Part shown: piece by piece, positions 2 to 14,009 of the stretch
How positions within the stretch are numbered: the first letter of the stretch is position 1
How the letters are laid out: every line of letters begins with the position of its first letter
Source of the DNA: a virus
DNA length: 21,681 bases
Virus record (IMG/VR): IMGVR_UViG_3300010354_000792
Span: 1 to 21,681 of that record
Reading direction: 5' to 3' (one strand)
The notes under the pieces: generated by a model
Seen by the model: the letters and a program-made list of their open reading frames with translations, nothing else
Database searches by the model: none
What the model was told of the DNA's origin: nothing
Position numbers and translations under genes: made by a program

Positions 2-2786
<2,785 letters not shown>

Positions 2787-2787
<1 letters not shown>

Positions 2788-3000: not shown

Positions 3001-3098
3001 AGTGTGGGATATAGAGTCTAAATGTAATATGCTCATATCATAAAAATCTAATTAAACTAAGCCATAGTTTAAATTTCCGTTATACTATATCCCACACT
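3001..3098 (+). ncRNA. Candidate structured small RNA closed by a 14-bp inverted repeat
   Basis: AGTGTGGGATATAG (3001-3014) is exactly complementary to CTATATCCCACACT (3085-3098). The closing helix encloses an 8-bp hairpin, TTAAACTA/TAGTTTAA (3052-3059/3065-3072, loop AGCCA), and a weaker hairpin at 3027-3038. This predicts a three-way-junction fold of about 98 nt. It is not a tRNA: no T-arm GTTC motif and wrong arm lengths. A late-type box precedes it and a terminator follows 12 nt downstream, the layout of an independent small RNA. It could instead be a 3' UTR structure protecting the fibre mRNA. Confidence 0.5.
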
Positions 3099-3134: not shown

Positions 3135-3154
3135 ACAAATATGCCGCTCAACCT

Positions 3155-3230
3155 TCTGGTGTAGAGTTTGTCGCACAGCGATGGCGTAAGTAGGATCAAG
3201 ACATACTGCAGGTGTCAGAGATAAACCAGA
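3155..3230. other. Weakly structured gene-free stretch
   Basis: No reading frame is supported. TCTGGT (3155-3160) and ACCAGA (3225-3230) could close a domain containing a small TCGC/GCGA hairpin (3171-3181). On the minus strand it lies directly after the stop of the leftward gene ending at 3231 and carries a CTCTGA string like the one flanking the pseudoknots. It may be a decayed member of that family. Confidence 0.25.
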
Positions 3231-3440
3231 TTAACGTTTTAGTTCGTATACAACTAACATCTTATTAAGTGTGTTAGCAAATTCTGGATCACTCATGCAA
3301 GCATTCATAATTTTTAAATGCATACCATAATGCTTGATAAAATCATCATACTCACTATCGGGAAATATAATTGCAGTTTGATTTTGCAATTTACGTTTTT
3401 CGCATTTGTATACCAAATGCAACATATCTTCTGTAAACAT
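3231..3440 (-). CDS. Small protein of unknown function
   Basis: 69 aa, not recognised. The sequence is mixed charged and hydrophobic, with predicted helix near the C terminus (SDPEFANTLNKMLVVYELKR) and no signal peptide or membrane segment. It is the last gene of the leftward cluster, convergent with the fibre operon. There is no Shine-Dalgarno sequence. Instead, TATAAATAC lies 3 nt upstream of the ATG, so the message may be leaderless. Two pseudoknots lie between it and the gene before it. Function is unknown; position in the cluster of small leftward genes suggests a host-takeover accessory gene, which is inference only. Confidence 0.6.
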   Translation of the reverse strand: MFTEDMLHLVYKCEKRKLQNQTAIIFPDSEYDDFIKHYGMHLKIMNACMSDPEFANTLNKMLVVYELKR

Positions 3441-3443
3441 AAT

Positions 3444-3452
3444 GTATTTATA
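3444..3452 (-). promoter_or_regulatory. TATAAATAC late-type promoter
   Basis: On the minus strand this reads TATAAATAC, an exact match to the T4 late promoter core plus C, ending 3 nt before the ATG at 3440. In T4 the start site lies about 6 nt after the box, which here would fall at or next to the start codon. It sits 3 nt downstream of the pseudoknot at 3456-3487. Confidence 0.55.
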
Positions 3453-3455
3453 GAT

Positions 3456-3487
3456 GTCCCGATTTACGGCACTTCGGGACCAGAGTG
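3456..3487 (-). ncRNA. H-type pseudoknot, copy A
   Basis: Minus-strand order: CACT (3487-3484), short loop CTG, GTCCCGA (3480-3474), AGTG (3473-3470), loop CCGTAAA, TCGGGAC (3462-3456). CACT pairs with AGTG and GTCCCGA with TCGGGAC; the two helices cross, giving a classic H-type pseudoknot with a short first loop and an A-rich third loop. Five other copies in this window keep the pairings with different bases. It lies between two leftward genes, just before a TATAAATAC box. Confidence 0.6.
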
Positions 3488-3525
3488 TTGATGCTTACCA
3501 TATAATTTATATGTAACCCGTGTTT

Positions 3526-3558
3526 CCGTTTCGCACTCATACTACGGTTAAGAGTATG
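3526..3558 (-). ncRNA. H-type pseudoknot, copy 2
   Basis: Minus-strand order: CATACT and AGTATG (6-bp helix, 3558-3553 with 3543-3538) crossing CCGT and ACGG (4-bp helix, 3547-3544 with 3529-3526), with third loop AGTGCGAA. The first helix differs in sequence from the other copies but still pairs fully. It lies upstream of copy A in the same intergenic space, after the stop of the gene at 3595-4035. Confidence 0.5.
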
Positions 3559-3594
3559 TAACAGGACAGATTATTATGATTTATGCCCTTAGTG

Positions 3595-4035
3595 CTATTC
3601 GCCAAGATTATGCAATCGCATAACCTCAGCAATTTGCTGTTCCTTACCTTTTAGACCACGCGCTGTATACCAAATACCACCATTCTTTTTTGGGTCAATA
3701 TATGCACCACCAATTTCTAATTTCCAATCTATTTCACGATCTCCATCCTCATGCAATTCTTTAGGAAGAAAGACTGTAAAATATGCACGGGTACCATCGT
3801 GTTTACCAATTTCAGGCAATTCATTTACAATGATTTGATTGCTACGCTGACGAGTAGTTAGATTATATTTGGCACACTGATCATAGAACCAATCAGTTTT
3901 TTGCTGTGCAGTCATATTGTTCCAAACTTGCTCATCAAGTAGTTCATTACGAACCTCAACAGCAGTTTCTACAATACTATCAATATTGAATTGATCGGAC
4001 AATTTACGAATTTTACTTTTCAAACTTTGAGCCAT
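3595..4035 (-). CDS. Protein of unknown function, 146 aa
   Basis: Not recognised. The N-terminal 60 residues look helical (KSKIRKLSDQFNIDSIVETA, then a DEQVWNNMTAQQKTDWFYDQ stretch). The second half appears beta-rich (RAYFTVFLPKEL, WKLEIGGAYIDP, IWYTARGLKG) and ends in a helix. There are no cysteine clusters, membrane segments or signal peptide. The start is well supported: AGGAGGG at 4043-4049 is 7 nt upstream of ATG, the strongest ribosome binding site in the leftward cluster. A TAAATAC box lies 58 nt upstream of the start codon and a 6-bp inverted repeat sits in the leader. Soluble phage accessory protein; function unknown. Confidence 0.75.
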   Translation of the reverse strand: MAQSLKSKIRKLSDQFNIDSIVETAVEVRNELLDEQVWNNMTAQQKTDWFYDQCAKYNLTTRQRSNQIIVNELPEIGKHDGTRAYFTVFLPKELHEDGDREIDWKLEIGGAYIDPKKNGGIWYTARGLKGKEQQIAEVMRLHNLGE

Positions 4036-4057
4036 TTTGTGACCCTCCTTTATGTTG

Positions 4058-4073
4058 CAGTCATTATTGACTG
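4058..4073 (-). promoter_or_regulatory. Inverted repeat in the leader of the 146-aa gene
   Basis: CAGTCA-TTAT-TGACTG is a perfect 6-bp inverted repeat with a 4-nt loop. It lies between the TAAATAC box (4093-4100) and the strong ribosome binding site (4043-4049). It could be an RNA hairpin in the leader or a small operator. Confidence 0.4.
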
Positions 4074-4092
4074 TATAGATATAATAACAAAT

Positions 4093-4100
4093 GTATTTAG
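4093..4100 (-). promoter_or_regulatory. CTAAATAC late-type promoter
   Basis: On the minus strand the sequence is CTAAATAC, 58 nt before the start codon of the gene ending at 3595 and 24 nt downstream of pseudoknot B. It is the same box found upstream of other genes on both strands. Unlike the 3440 gene, this one has a strong Shine-Dalgarno sequence. Confidence 0.5.
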
Positions 4101-4124
4101 TAGTATCAAGTAATTTGGGTAAGT

Positions 4125-4158
4125 ATCCCGATTCGCACCTTGCTCGGGATCACACAAG
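4125..4158 (-). ncRNA. H-type pseudoknot, copy B
   Basis: Minus-strand order: CTTG (4158-4155), loop TGTG, ATCCCGA (4150-4144), one unpaired G, CAAG (4142-4139), loop GTGCGAA, TCGGGAT (4131-4125). The first helix is CTTG/CAAG rather than the CACT/AGTG of other copies: a full compensatory change. The terminal pair of the second helix is A-T where copy A has G-C. A T6 run precedes it on the minus strand, about 40 nt after the stop of the gene at 4204. Confidence 0.6.
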
Positions 4159-4203
4159 AAAAAAGCCATTTAGACCAGTGCTACCCTGCTAGAAAGCATC
4201 GTA

Positions 4204-4662
4204 TTATTTACTTTCAAAATTATAACTATTTTCTATACCTACAACCTCAAAGTAGCGAATATATTGATTAACTATTTCTTCCCTAAAATCTATTCTATTT
4301 GGTTTTTTAAAATCTTCATAGCCTTTCATTCTAAAAAACGCTCTATAAAGAGAACGACATTCAGTACTAACATAATACATAAAACCTGTGTATTCTGGTT
4401 TTTTAGTTAGATATGAACAATTATCATAATCAGTTTGTAATAATTCCATAGCATGTAATTCTTTTACAAGATATACATTATTAGCAAACTCCCAAATATC
4501 ATTTTTCATTTTATTTTTAAAAGTTGACTTATTAGAATATGCATTACGATATTTTGGAGAAAGTTCACCATATTGGTAATGTAAAAGATTTATAGAGGCA
4601 ATCTCTGCCCAATGTTCGCTAATATATTTTAGTTCTCTTTTAGATAATTTAGGTAGTTTCAT
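4204..4662 (-). CDS. Protein of unknown function, about 152 aa
   Basis: Not recognised. Mostly helical, rich in Tyr, Lys and Glu, with a basic N terminus (MKLPKLSKRELKYISEHWAE); no membrane segment. The frame stays open upstream to a GTG at 4707, but those 15 extra codons would come from the conserved pseudoknot at 4691-4725, whose bases are explained by RNA pairing. The ATG at 4662 is therefore preferred, though it has no clear Shine-Dalgarno sequence. Transcription probably starts from the promoter at 4877-4904, putting two pseudoknots in its leader. Codon use is strongly AT-rich like its neighbours. Function unknown. Confidence 0.65.
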   Translation of the reverse strand: MKLPKLSKRELKYISEHWAEIASINLLHYQYGELSPKYRNAYSNKSTFKNKMKNDIWEFANNVYLVKELHAMELLQTDYDNCSYLTKKPEYTGFMYYVSTECRSLYRAFFRMKGYEDFKKPNRIDFREEIVNQYIRYFEVVGIENSYNFESK

Positions 4663-4690
4663 AAATTGTTCTATGTAATTAATTAAAGAT

Positions 4691-4725
4691 GTCCCGTTTG
4701 AGCGCACACTACGGGATCAGAGTGT
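4691..4725 (-). ncRNA. H-type pseudoknot, copy D2
   Basis: Minus-strand order: ACACT (4725-4721), loop CTGA, TCCCGT (4716-4711), AGTGT (4710-4706), loop GCGCTCAA, ACGGGA (4697-4692). Five- and six-base-pair helices cross to form the pseudoknot. The loop sequence nearly matches the + strand copy at 6322-6358. It lies 29 nt upstream of the preferred start of the gene at 4204-4662. Confidence 0.6.
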
Positions 4726-4784
4726 TTATGAGGGGATGTTAGGTGCAATGCTGAGGTACCCTGCGCTATTTTTTAAAAATGAGT

Positions 4785-4815
4785 ATCACGTTACGTGCGC
4801 CTACGTGATCAGAGG
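4785..4815 (-). ncRNA. H-type pseudoknot, copy D1 (weaker first helix)
   Basis: Minus-strand order: CCT, loop CTG, ATCACGT (4809-4803), AGG (4802-4800), loop CGCACGTA, ACGTGAT (4791-4785). The second helix carries an A-T pair (plus-strand A4788 with T4806) where other copies have C-G, a compensatory change. The first helix is only 3 bp, so this copy may be degenerate. An AT-rich run TTTTTAAAAAA follows on the minus strand. Confidence 0.45.
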
Positions 4816-4876
4816 TTCCGAAGTGCTTACGAGGGAGTAATCTGAAAGATGTTGTAAGCAACGATACACATTATTA

Positions 4877-4904
4877 ATTATACACAAACTATTTGTAGAT
4901 ACAA
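4877..4904 (-). promoter_or_regulatory. Possible sigma70-like leftward promoter
   Basis: On the minus strand, TTGTAT (4904-4899), a 16-bp spacer and TATAAT (4882-4877). It lies just after the stop of the gene at 4919 and upstream of pseudoknots D1 and D2 and the gene at 4204-4662. The -10 is consensus; the -35 is moderate. Confidence 0.4.
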
Positions 4905-4918
4905 ATTATTTGGGTAAT

Positions 4919-5197
4919 TTATTTTACCTCAACAATTACACCAAGATCAAGCAATGTTCTAAAACGACAACCTGCTTCTAGCCTGCTATGATCCTTACCT
5001 GTAGATGATAAGTATTGTGGTCTTAATTTAATTACTTTGATAATAAGGTCGCGACATTCTTTATATGTAAATGATTTGAATGCAAAATAAGTGCGACACA
5101 TATCGTGTTCATGTTGAAAGTAATCATTAACATTACGTTCAGCAAGCCACACAAAACGACGACCATTATAATTGTTACGAATTTTTTGCTTTTTCAT
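4919..5197 (-). CDS. Small basic protein of unknown function, 92 aa
   Basis: Not recognised. Basic N terminus (MKKQKIRNNYNGRRFVWLAE) followed by a helical centre with scattered aromatic and Cys residues (HEHDMCRTYFAFKSFTYKEC) and a short hydrophobic end. Charge suggests nucleic-acid contact, but no zinc or helix-turn-helix motif is clear. It begins 3 nt after the stop of the gene at 5201-5437 without an obvious Shine-Dalgarno sequence, so it is probably expressed by coupled translation from the leftward promoter at 5481-5509. Confidence 0.7.
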   Translation of the reverse strand: MKKQKIRNNYNGRRFVWLAERNVNDYFQHEHDMCRTYFAFKSFTYKECRDLIIKVIKLRPQYLSSTGKDHSRLEAGCRFRTLLDLGVIVEVK

Positions 5198-5200
5198 AAA

Positions 5201-5437
5201 TTACTCTAAAATTGTAAAGACCTGATCAGAAAGTTCTACAAGTTCAATAGAAACCTTTTTACCTTTTGGAAGAGCAGATTGAATCTCTGTAAAAGTTTGA
5301 CGAAAATATACAGCAATATCATCATTATCATCAAATGCGTGTTCCTTTTCCAAAAGGGTTTCATTAGTATCAGCATTGACTAACGATTGATACATCGTGT
5401 TATCAATAGTTTTATAATAAAGAACATAGTTACTCAT
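5201..5437 (-). CDS. Small acidic protein of unknown function, 78 aa
   Basis: First gene of the leftward early-type operon. Acidic and soluble: beta-like start (MSNYVLYYKTIDNTMYQSLV), an acidic middle (EKEHAFDDNDDIAVYFRQTF) and a beta-like end. No family recognised. Ribosome binding site AAGGTGA (5447-5441) has good spacing to the ATG. The promoter at 5481-5509 is the best sigma70 match in the window, so this is expected to be an early and strongly expressed gene. Small acidic early proteins often bind and inhibit host enzymes, but nothing here identifies a target. Confidence 0.75.
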   Translation of the reverse strand: MSNYVLYYKTIDNTMYQSLVNADTNETLLEKEHAFDDNDDIAVYFRQTFTEIQSALPKGKKVSIELVELSDQVFTILE

Positions 5438-5480
5438 AAATCACCTTTTTCAACATTCGTAGCAAGTCGCTACATTGTTA

Positions 5481-5509
5481 ATATTACGCTCAAGCAAGGC
5501 CAGAGTCAA
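5481..5509 (-). promoter_or_regulatory. Strong sigma70-like leftward promoter
   Basis: On the minus strand, TTGACT (5509-5504), 17-bp spacer, TAATAT (5486-5481). Spacing is optimal and both boxes are near consensus. Transcription would start about 5474 and give a leader of about 37 nt carrying AAGGTGA before the ATG at 5437. It drives the leftward genes and implies use of host RNA polymerase early in infection. Confidence 0.7.
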
Positions 5510-5516
5510 CAACTAA

Positions 5517-5690
5517 AAATCCAACAAAATCAATGACTTACGTAACCTATTGATTTTATTAGGTTTTTTTCCGTGTTTTTTGCGTATATATAATGAGTAA
5601 TTTTATGCGCATAAACTGGTGTAAAATGCATAAAATACTTTCCGTTATAAATCAATGACTTACGACGCCGGCACTGTAAGTCATTGATTT
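5517..5690. repeat. Three-copy 16-bp repeat with overlapping inverted repeats
   Basis: AAATCAATGACTTACG occurs at 5527-5542 and 5649-5664, and its inverse GTAAGTCATTGATTT at 5676-5690. The second and third copies form a perfect 15-bp hairpin with a 12-nt loop (5664-5675). The flanks extend the match between 5517-5542 and 5675-5700 to 24 of 26 complementary positions. Part of the first copy can also pair locally (AAAATCAAT 5526-5534 with ATTGATTTT 5549-5557) ahead of a T7 run at 5564-5570. In a gene-free divergent region this suggests operators for a dimeric regulator, origin iterons, or alternative RNA pairing. Confidence 0.75.
5602..5615. promoter_or_regulatory. Perfect 14-bp palindrome, operator-like
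   Basis: TTTATGCGCATAAA is a perfect palindrome, 7 bp after a consensus TATAAT (5589-5594) that has no good -35. A related half-site ATGCATAAAA follows at 5626-5635. The spacing from the -10-like box is that expected of a repressor site near a transcription start. Otherwise 5438-5779 holds no gene. Confidence 0.45.
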
Positions 5691-5707
5691 TGCTGGATTT
5701 ATATTTG

Positions 5708-5735
5708 TTGCATTAGGCCTAGATATCTGTAGAAT
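5708..5735 (+). promoter_or_regulatory. Possible sigma70-like rightward promoter
   Basis: TTGCAT (5708-5713), 16-bp spacer, TAGAAT (5730-5735). The expected start near 5742 coincides with a 6-bp hairpin, GTAGTC/GACTAC (5743-5748/5755-5760), at the very 5' end of the message, 8 nt before the AGGAG at 5769-5773. Such 5' hairpins can stabilise mRNA. Confidence 0.45.
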
Positions 5736-5779
5736 AGATTATGTAGTCAATAACGACTACGCATTGACAGGAGTAATTT

Positions 5780-6034
5780 ATGAGTTATACAAGTGATTAC
5801 AACAAGCGTAAGCAAATTGCTAGCGAATATAGCAATGTTCTTGATCGTTTAATTATGCCTAAGGACATTCGTATTACAAAGTCTGGCGATATTGTTACTA
5901 ACAATTTGTCTCTCGACGAGGCAAAAATTCTTGAACAATATATTTGTAACAAATATGAAAGTGAGGGTCTTAAGCGCGAATTTAGCGATGAATTCGATGC
6001 TGAAGTAGATTCGCTTTTTGCTGTAAAGCATTAA
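5780..6034 (+). CDS. Small charged protein of unknown function, 84 aa
   Basis: First rightward gene of the divergent region, with AGGAG 6 nt before the ATG. It is highly charged and predicted helical: a basic, polar N terminus (MSYTSDYNKRKQIASEYSNV), a centre like LSLDEAKILEQYICNKYESE and an acidic end. No membrane segment or metal site. Synonymous usage (GAC, CGT, GCT) looks closer to that of highly expressed genes than the structural genes' usage, as does the gene at 6126. Function unknown; position next to strong promoters suggests early expression. Confidence 0.7.
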   Translation: MSYTSDYNKRKQIASEYSNVLDRLIMPKDIRITKSGDIVTNNLSLDEAKILEQYICNKYESEGLKREFSDEFDAEVDSLFAVKH

Positions 6035-6044
6035 TGTAGCAAAA

Positions 6045-6082
6045 ATACAACACATACAGGCTTGACTCTGTATGTGTTGTAT
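6045..6082 (+). promoter_or_regulatory. Perfect 15-bp inverted repeat around the -35 box
   Basis: ATACAACACATACAG (6045-6059) is exactly repeated in inverse at 6068-6082, with an 8-nt centre that contains the -35 hexamer TTGACT (6062-6067). Shorter TGTAG/CTACA arms (6035-6039, 6084-6088) extend it. As DNA it would let a dimeric repressor cover the -35 and spacer; as RNA it would form a strong hairpin after the gene ending at 6034. The lack of a following T run argues against a simple terminator. Confidence 0.65.
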
Positions 6083-6090
6083 ACTACAAT
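6062..6090 (+). promoter_or_regulatory. Strong sigma70-like rightward promoter
   Basis: TTGACT (6062-6067), 17-bp spacer, TACAAT (6085-6090). Both boxes are near consensus with ideal spacing. The start would be near 6097, giving a leader of about 29 nt that carries GAGGTG before the ATG at 6126. The -35 sits inside the 15-bp inverted repeat. Confidence 0.65.
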
Positions 6091-6125
6091 GTATATGTTG
6101 TTTAATTTTACTTATGAGGTGATTT

Positions 6126-6299
6126 ATGTCTGATACTACTCTTGACGATTTGCTTGAACGTATTATTACTCACGCTAACGAGGCGCAAGGTCGTGATGTT
6201 GACGACAACTGGATCGATTACGATTTAACTCAAATTGTTGCTACGTGCGACGAGATTCAAGAATTGTTACACAAATTACGCGACAAATCTGATCAATGA
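6126..6299 (+). CDS. Small acidic protein of unknown function, 57 aa
   Basis: ATG at 6126 with GAGGTG 6 nt upstream; TGA at 6297-6299. Very acidic and predicted to form two helices (MSDTTLDDLLERIITHANEA; TQIVATCDEIQELLHKLRDK). It has its own strong promoter and is followed 22 nt later by a pseudoknot/terminator, so it is a single-gene transcription unit. Codon use favours GAC, CGT, GCT and ACT and resembles its neighbour at 5780 more than the AT-rich accessory genes. No family recognised; small early host-interaction protein is an inference. Confidence 0.7.
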   Translation: MSDTTLDDLLERIITHANEAQGRDVDDNWIDYDLTQIVATCDEIQELLHKLRDKSDQ

Positions 6300-6321
6300 C
6301 TCCTGGCGCAATCGCATAACG

Positions 6322-6358
6322 CACTCTTAGCCCGTAGTGTGCGCAAAACGGGCTTTTT
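6322..6358 (+). terminator. Terminator with the pseudoknot fold (copy 1)
   Basis: AGCCCGT (6329-6335) pairs with ACGGGCT (6348-6354), followed by a run of T ending at 6358: a good terminator for the 57-aa gene. The 12-nt loop AGTGTGCGCAAA starts with AGTG, which can pair with CACT (6322-6325) just upstream, giving the same crossing-helix fold as the five minus-strand copies; the loop is nearly identical to copy D2. It is the only copy with an immediate T run, and it lies 10 nt before a TAAATAC box. Confidence 0.75.
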
Positions 6359-6368
6359 ACTATTTTGG

Positions 6369-6375
6369 TAAATAC
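6369..6375 (+). promoter_or_regulatory. TAAATAC late-type promoter
   Basis: TAAATAC ends 4 nt before the ATG of the glycosyltransferase gene (6380). No Shine-Dalgarno sequence lies in that space or just upstream. It follows the pseudoknot terminator at 6322-6358. Confidence 0.55.
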
Positions 6376-7798: not shown

Positions 7799-7805
7799 TA
7801 AATAC
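7799..7805 (+). promoter_or_regulatory. TAAATAC late-type promoter
   Basis: TAAATAC begins 2 bases after the 7797 stop. The start would be near 7811, giving a leader of about 108 nt in front of the DUF5710-like gene, which is long compared with other TAAATAC genes and contains the folded element at 7831-7913. Confidence 0.5.
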
Positions 7806-8673: not shown

Positions 8674-8680
8674 TAAATAC
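8674..8680 (+). promoter_or_regulatory. TAAATAC late-type promoter
   Basis: TAAATAC lies 25 nt before the ATG at 8706, with AGGAG in between. It follows the structured region and the TATAAT box. Confidence 0.5.
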
Positions 8681-9199: not shown

Positions 9200-9358
9200 G
9201 TGCTTAAAAATGTCATTACATATTATCAAAGACACACTAAACTAGGTTGGAAAACTGTGGGATATGTATGTCAGATATGTAACAAATACTTTGTAAAAGC
9301 CAAAAGTATGGAAGAACATATATGTAAAGTAAAAAAACCTATTACTAAAACTGAGTAA
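9200..9358 (+). CDS. Small zinc-finger protein, 52 aa
   Basis: Starts at GTG (9200), the only common start after an in-frame stop at 9194-9196, and ends at TAA overlapping the next TAAATAC box. Residues 24-42 (CQICNKYFVKAKSMEEHIC) follow the C2H2 finger pattern exactly as far as the histidine: C-X2-C-X3-F-X5-M-X2-H. The fourth ligand would be Cys42, one residue after His40, closer than the usual 3-5 spacing, so zinc binding may be atypical. Basic residues surround it, fitting nucleic-acid binding. There is no Shine-Dalgarno sequence; TAAATAAA lies 2 nt upstream. Likely a small regulator, by inference. Confidence 0.6.
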   Translation: MLKNVITYYQRHTKLGWKTVGYVCQICNKYFVKAKSMEEHICKVKKPITKTE

Positions 9359-9362
9359 ATAC
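9356..9362 (+). promoter_or_regulatory. TAAATAC late-type promoter
   Basis: TAAATAC overlaps the stop codon of the zinc-finger gene and ends 4 nt before the methyltransferase ATG at 9367. No Shine-Dalgarno sequence is present, as at 6369. Confidence 0.55.
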
Positions 9363-14001: not shown

Positions 14002-14009
14002 ATAAATAC
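14002..14009 (+). promoter_or_regulatory. ATAAATAC late-type promoter
   Basis: ATAAATAC lies 22 nt before the ATG at 14032, with AGGG in between. It separates the HNH gene from the portal/capsid genes and could boost structural gene expression. Confidence 0.5.

Follow-up and report, generated by a model that had tools for sequence, protein, structure and literature searches.

The sequence analyzed here, referred to as the window, is a 21,681-nt stretch of viral DNA (IMG/VR record IMGVR_UViG_3300010354_000792, positions 1-21,681). On one of its strands, a series of short modules is strung in tandem with small ORFs between them (Table 1). The minus-strand order is a predicted promoter, module I (D1), module II (D2), a 152-aa ORF, module III (B), a 146-aa ORF, copy 2, module A, a 69-aa ORF and a 3' domain. 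An additional module, on the plus strand, is flanked by two small ORFs on one side and a 396-aa ORF on the other. The 69-aa ORF had no significant family match, and the ORFs downstream of modules had no significant match in Pfam or PHROG.

Table 1. Promoter, modules, ORFs and 3' domain in the module-containing part of the window (window coordinates)
Feature	Position	Strand	Description
Predicted promoter of the RNA locus	4870..4914	-	-10 TATAAT at 4877-4882; -35-like TTTGTA 17 nt upstream; CCCA near -45; start G4869
Module I (D1)	4785..4869	-	a GTGT, a' GCAC; hairpin b GCTTAC/GTAAGC; ACTTCGGAA; c CCT/AGG; d ATCACGT/ACGTGAT; 71.6 bits
Module II (D2)	4692..4767	-	a AGCGCA, a' TGCGCT; b GGG/CCC; c ACACT/AGTGT; d TCCCGT/ACGGGA
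152-aa ORF	4204..4662	-	between modules II and III; ATG 29 nt after D2; no SD
Module III (B)	4125..4181	-	a GCAC, a' GTGC; c CTTG/CAAG; d ATCCCGA/TCGGGAT; hairpin b indistinct; homologs in L117, L113, L098 and L104
Module "2" (copy 2)	3526..3595	-	a GCACT, a' AGTGC; c CATACT/AGTATG; d CCGT/ACGG; no clear b
Module A	3456..3521	-	a ACGG, a' CCGT; b TTAC/GTAA; c CACT/AGTG; d GTCCCGA/TCGGGAC
69-aa ORF	3231..3440	-	3' of module A; TAAATAC at 3446-3452 just ahead of ATG; no SD
3' domain	3001..3098	-	closing stem AGTGTGGGATATAG/CTATATCCCACACT around ACTATGGCT hairpin; 3' of modules in relatives too; fold z-score -3.85
Plus-strand class II module	6306..6354	+	a GCGCA, a' TGCGC; c GCACT/AGTGT; d AGCCCGT/ACGGGCT; then T run; no b

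A sequence-only reading of this DNA had proposed six sites with crossing helices, at 3456-3487 (A), 3526-3558 (copy 2), 4125-4158 (B), 4691-4725 (D2) and 4785-4815 (D1) on the minus strand and at 6322-6358 on the plus strand. All six refolded in this way. The sites had been placed correctly, with ends off by 1-4 nt (the D2 helix ends at 4692 and that of the plus-strand copy at 6354, before the T run). In a scan scored on stems plus shared bases (first-loop CU, third-loop GCG and AA), the six sites ranked at the top of the window with scores of 31-41.5, and one more match (31.5) was the plus-strand copy read as its reverse complement. None of 100 dinucleotide-shuffled windows had a site scoring at least 31, and the same scan of related phage contigs gave 46 matches at a score of at least 30 (overlapping loci counted) versus none in reversed sequence. 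The scan motif was derived from the six copies themselves; therefore, its weight depends on the relatives discovered later. When H-type pseudoknots were searched for with no motif (together with a helix-a search), reversed sequence yielded as many matches as real sequence. Thus, the geometry of a single copy proves nothing, the claim rests on the family, and only motif-guided members were retained.

We placed 46 modules, with 36 distinct cores, side by side and found a common order: a, hairpin b, a linker, c, a CU loop, d, c', a', RAA and d'. What had been called the third loop is partly base-paired: its first 4-6 nt (a') form a helix with a segment (a) farther upstream. Each module very probably forms a three-way junction (a, b and c) closed by a c/d pseudoknot, of which the stand-alone H-type pseudoknot proposed earlier had captured the core only. 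There is likewise little doubt that the loop of hairpin c (d) pairs with d', just 3' of helix a. The third loop, previously taken to be A-rich and suited to minor-groove contacts, turned out to be mainly the third helix strand (a'), followed by a linker of 3 nt, in most cases RAA or NAA. Helix a occurs as GUGU/GCAC, UUGCGC/GCGCAA, AGCGCA/UGCGCU, GCACA/UGUGC, GCACU/AGUGC, ACGG/CCGU, GGGUG/CGCCC, CAGGGC/GCCCUG or CGUGC/GCACG. Some modules of classes II and III lack hairpin b or have an indistinct one. Few of the unpaired bases are conserved. When D2 was folded with nested pairs only, excluding pseudoknots, the best structure was exactly the a-b-c junction.

The matched changes in both crossing helices noted by the sequence-only reading held up in two alignments. 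In that of the 36 distinct cores, which was cut by structure and is biased toward a positive result, 99.3% of pair cells were standard, all 12 core pairs had two-sided changes and the covariation score was 0.83 (0.19 when shuffled); the signal was destroyed when partners were slid. A fairer test was a sequence-only alignment of 15 type-I modules. Here 96% of pairs were standard and 49 double changes were counted, compared with 14.8 in shuffles and 1-10 with partners slid, supporting helices b, c and d. Helix a hardly varies within type I and is uninformative there. Four standard pairs joined a to a' in 45 of the 46 modules; with a' reassigned among modules, this number averaged 18.5 and never exceeded 26. 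Segment a was located no more than 15 nt upstream of hairpin b in 34 of 36 modules, whereas 5.7 would be expected. The RNA architecture is well supported by matched changes in three helices of a compact module and, in type I, in a fourth (hairpin b).

Relatives were identified via terminase-related contigs and pattern scans of IMG/VR. Confinement to this one contig had been named beforehand as a reason to abandon the family; a further 19 IMG/VR contigs, the majority from relatives of the window phage, also have modules. The type-I search pattern covered the core only, with GTGTATC and the upstream hairpin left out. It newly detected L126, L127, L129, L132 and L134 as well as a type-I module in L123, all of which have GTGTATC and a complementary hairpin. 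Matches in L128, L133 and L135 have neither and were set aside as chance, which was also our judgment of early pattern matches in L081, L085, L086, L087, L088 and L090. A strict class II pattern gave no match. A covariance model (R1), which by construction included every matched contig except L033 and the newly searched contigs, detected one full-length type I per contig at 70-88 bits and a variant in L033 at 36 bits; its weaker matches in L104 and L132 were the class II modules of those contigs.

In bacterial genomes, the type-I pattern had 23 matches (~30 expected by chance) and the covariance model scored at most 18 bits. As this is about chance level, no bacterial copy is claimed. A comparison of the DNA of the locus with the phage collection detected no relative, only chance-level pieces. 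The terminase was <30% identical to those of cultured phages among the best matches listed, the capsid protein had no match, and no cultured member of the phage group was found in these searches. An Rfam 15 search at gathering scores, covering the window and nine loci, detected only COG2908 RNA, outside the modules, and the module regions of L098 and L113 had no Rfam match even at permissive E-values; the earlier statement that no named family fits thus agrees with the covariance models of Rfam 15. A literature search found nothing on tandem pseudoknots, phage noncoding RNA, phage RNase J resistance or COG2908. By these searches, the modules are a new family of structured RNA, of a broadly known kind (viral pseudoknot RNAs) and previously uncatalogued. 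The COG2908 RNA (RF02939, 67.7 bits) is located at 3142-3186 (+), on the strand opposite the modules and past the end of the 69-aa ORF. It also occurs in L104, L113 and L117, in the latter two likewise beside this ORF.

A promoter-driven transcript, with a predicted start, appears to begin with D1 (TATAAT-7-GTGTATC). In seven phages, a TATAAT-like box precedes the start of type I by 6-7 nt and is itself accompanied by a weak -35 and, near -45, by CCCA. The window promoter, whose -35 is weak, was absent from a strict consensus promoter scan. In L091, L094, L127 and L129, the locus consists of I, IV and the 3' domain with no ORF listed between, and spans 311-330 nt, a short 3' flank included. 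With an extra module, the L134 locus reaches 388 nt, and in L126, L132 and L123 an 81-aa ORF follows the first one or two modules. The existence of ORF-free loci indicates that the RNA itself is conserved. A deviant order was observed in L098 (12923-13300): II, a GCCCAC module, III, then promoter and I.

With regard to function, we favor the possibility that the modules act in cis as compact shields or boundaries against RNA decay, to which we assign a probability of about 35%. A mechanical block is our first choice because the helix order equals that of flaviviral xrRNA (P1, P2, P3 with loop L3, P1', S4). At the predicted promoter start, the first transcript bases of type I (GUGU) would form helix a, and a module in this position would deprive 5'-end-dependent decay of a free 5' end to act on. 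Placed between ORFs or at the end of a transcript, a module would keep exonucleases from advancing or trimming. In this way, the small phage RNA of four relatives (311-330 nt, no long ORFs) and the messages of intervening ORFs may persist. The site of the plus-strand module also fits an end-stabilizing element: the nearest relative, whose 396-aa protein is 92% identical, has a strong plain hairpin with a T run in its place. This module site is also found in L082 and L091, and L118 has a plain hairpin there. The small number of conserved unpaired bases speaks against a shield, as do the start codons discussed below.

Both flaviviral xrRNAs (PMC5760640) and the phage modules combine a three-way junction with base pairing between the third-helix loop and sequence 3' of the closing helix (a, b, c(d), c', a', d' in the modules), and both are compact units, often tandem, in viral RNA. 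One flaviviral xrRNA stops bacterial RNase J1 as well (PMC5760640). In contrast to xrRNAs, which are located in the 3' UTR, the phage modules come from a bacterial virus, occur before or between ORFs, have no extra P1-type helix between c' and a' and share no sequence similarity with them. We do not claim membership, as xrRNAs are defined by a ring that encircles the 5' end, built from additional junction pairs and a base triple, and by the stopping of a 5'-3' exoribonuclease, whereas the phage modules are known from sequence comparison.

The strongest rival is control of translation, because four unrelated ORFs with no SD start 7-9 nt after a module. These ATGs, preceded by neither SD nor TAAATAC, were observed 3' of d' in ORFs of 81 aa (L136, L126, L132 and L123), 78 aa (L094), 58 aa (L096) and 52 aa (L098). 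In L132, the spacing ahead of the 81-aa ORF is unchanged even though a class II module replaces module I, and about three quarters of the ORFs in these phages have an SD-like match. A module in the position of the Shine-Dalgarno helix might repress initiation until a protein or ligand binds, or help recruit the ribosome; T4 gp32, for example, represses initiation at its pseudoknot. However, modules are kept in ORF-free loci, tandem and mid-transcript modules have no start codon, and 25% of the ORFs have no SD anyway. On balance, we regard this reading as tentative. The T4 gene 32 operator (PMC535899, PMC3014915) is similarly a pseudoknot of a phage message upstream of a start codon; the phage modules differ in adding a three-way junction, in their many copies and in starts with no SD. 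The hallmark of that operator, a gene for a single-strand binding protein with an SD, was not found here: the downstream ORFs have no SD and no significant Pfam or PHROG match, as noted above.

Other starts directly 3' of TAAATAC, which are probably leaderless, also argue against a general role in translation. This motif precedes genes at 3446-3452 (-) and at 6369-6375, 7799-7805, 8674-8680, 9356-9362 and 14002-14008 (+). It occurs either 3-6 nt from the ATG, nearly always with no SD, or at least 17 nt upstream, with an SD present in the cases listed. The T4 late promoter is TATAAATA; the resemblance of TAAATAC to it suggests leaderless messages. Given the two spacings, we rejected the idea that the transcript carrying a module is also the one from which every ATG downstream of it is translated. 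TAAATAC immediately follows modules A, P, III of L117 and X of L112, which may therefore mark the end of the preceding transcript instead of the beginning of the following one.

It is also conceivable, if somewhat doubtful, that the locus produces a trans-acting noncoding RNA, such as a sponge that presents a repeated shape to a host or phage protein. The modules are repeated, their shape is constant while sequence turnover is near-total, and the locus has its own predicted promoter and the ORF-free forms described above. On the other hand, lone modules ahead of unrelated genes (the plus-strand copy, L112, L108 and L032) suit a cis role, and few conserved unpaired bases are available for recognition. 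GOLLD and ROOL RNAs (PMC12286853) are likewise phage-encoded structured RNAs with pseudoknots and no assigned function; neither Rfam model matches here, and the phage RNA differs in consisting of short modules that recur along its length, often with ORFs between them.

The sequence-only reading had listed terminators as an option, and a d/d' hairpin acting as a transcription terminator or attenuator does fit part of the family. A T run directly follows d' in about 5 of the 46 modules (the plus-strand copy and four other class II modules), resembling intrinsic terminators, and the hairpin at the plus-strand site of the nearest relative is terminator-like. The remaining 41 are not directly followed by a T run, type I begins a transcript rather than ending it, and the further conserved helices a, b and c, unneeded for termination, are maintained by matched changes. 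We therefore rejected a pure terminator reading for the whole family, and consider a terminator or attenuator role improbable. Least probable is an antitermination element read by RNA polymerase just after the promoter, like HK022 put RNA: type I is at +1 of the predicted promoter and modules with T runs lie downstream, but most modules are not adjacent to a promoter and neither sequence nor Rfam gave a match.

A broader version of the shield reading is that phages begin and punctuate transcripts with tandem three-way-junction pseudoknots that either stop RNA-degrading enzymes mechanically, as a counterpart of xrRNA, or replace the Shine-Dalgarno sequence at SD-less starts. We see this as an unlikely idea. 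If the modules do block nucleases or replace Shine-Dalgarno sequences, bacterial viruses would share a strategy that is familiar to us only from eukaryotic RNA viruses. The natural modules, with their widely differing sequences, constitute a testable set.

Several other features of the window were observed. Repeated AATCAATGACTTACG inverted repeats are located between divergent operons at 5526-5565 and 5640-5700. One of them has crossing-helix geometry without the family motif, and similar copies occur in L082 (505-543) and L033. A promoter-like TTGACT-17-TACAAT is present at 6045-6092, with its -35 enclosed by the two arms of an inverted repeat of 15 bp; in L033, a similar repeat of other sequence surrounds TTGACA. 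Might the repeat at 6045-6092 be an operator or a cruciform? Finally, an 898-aa tail fibre with long collagen-like GATG repeats is encoded at 91-2787 (+).
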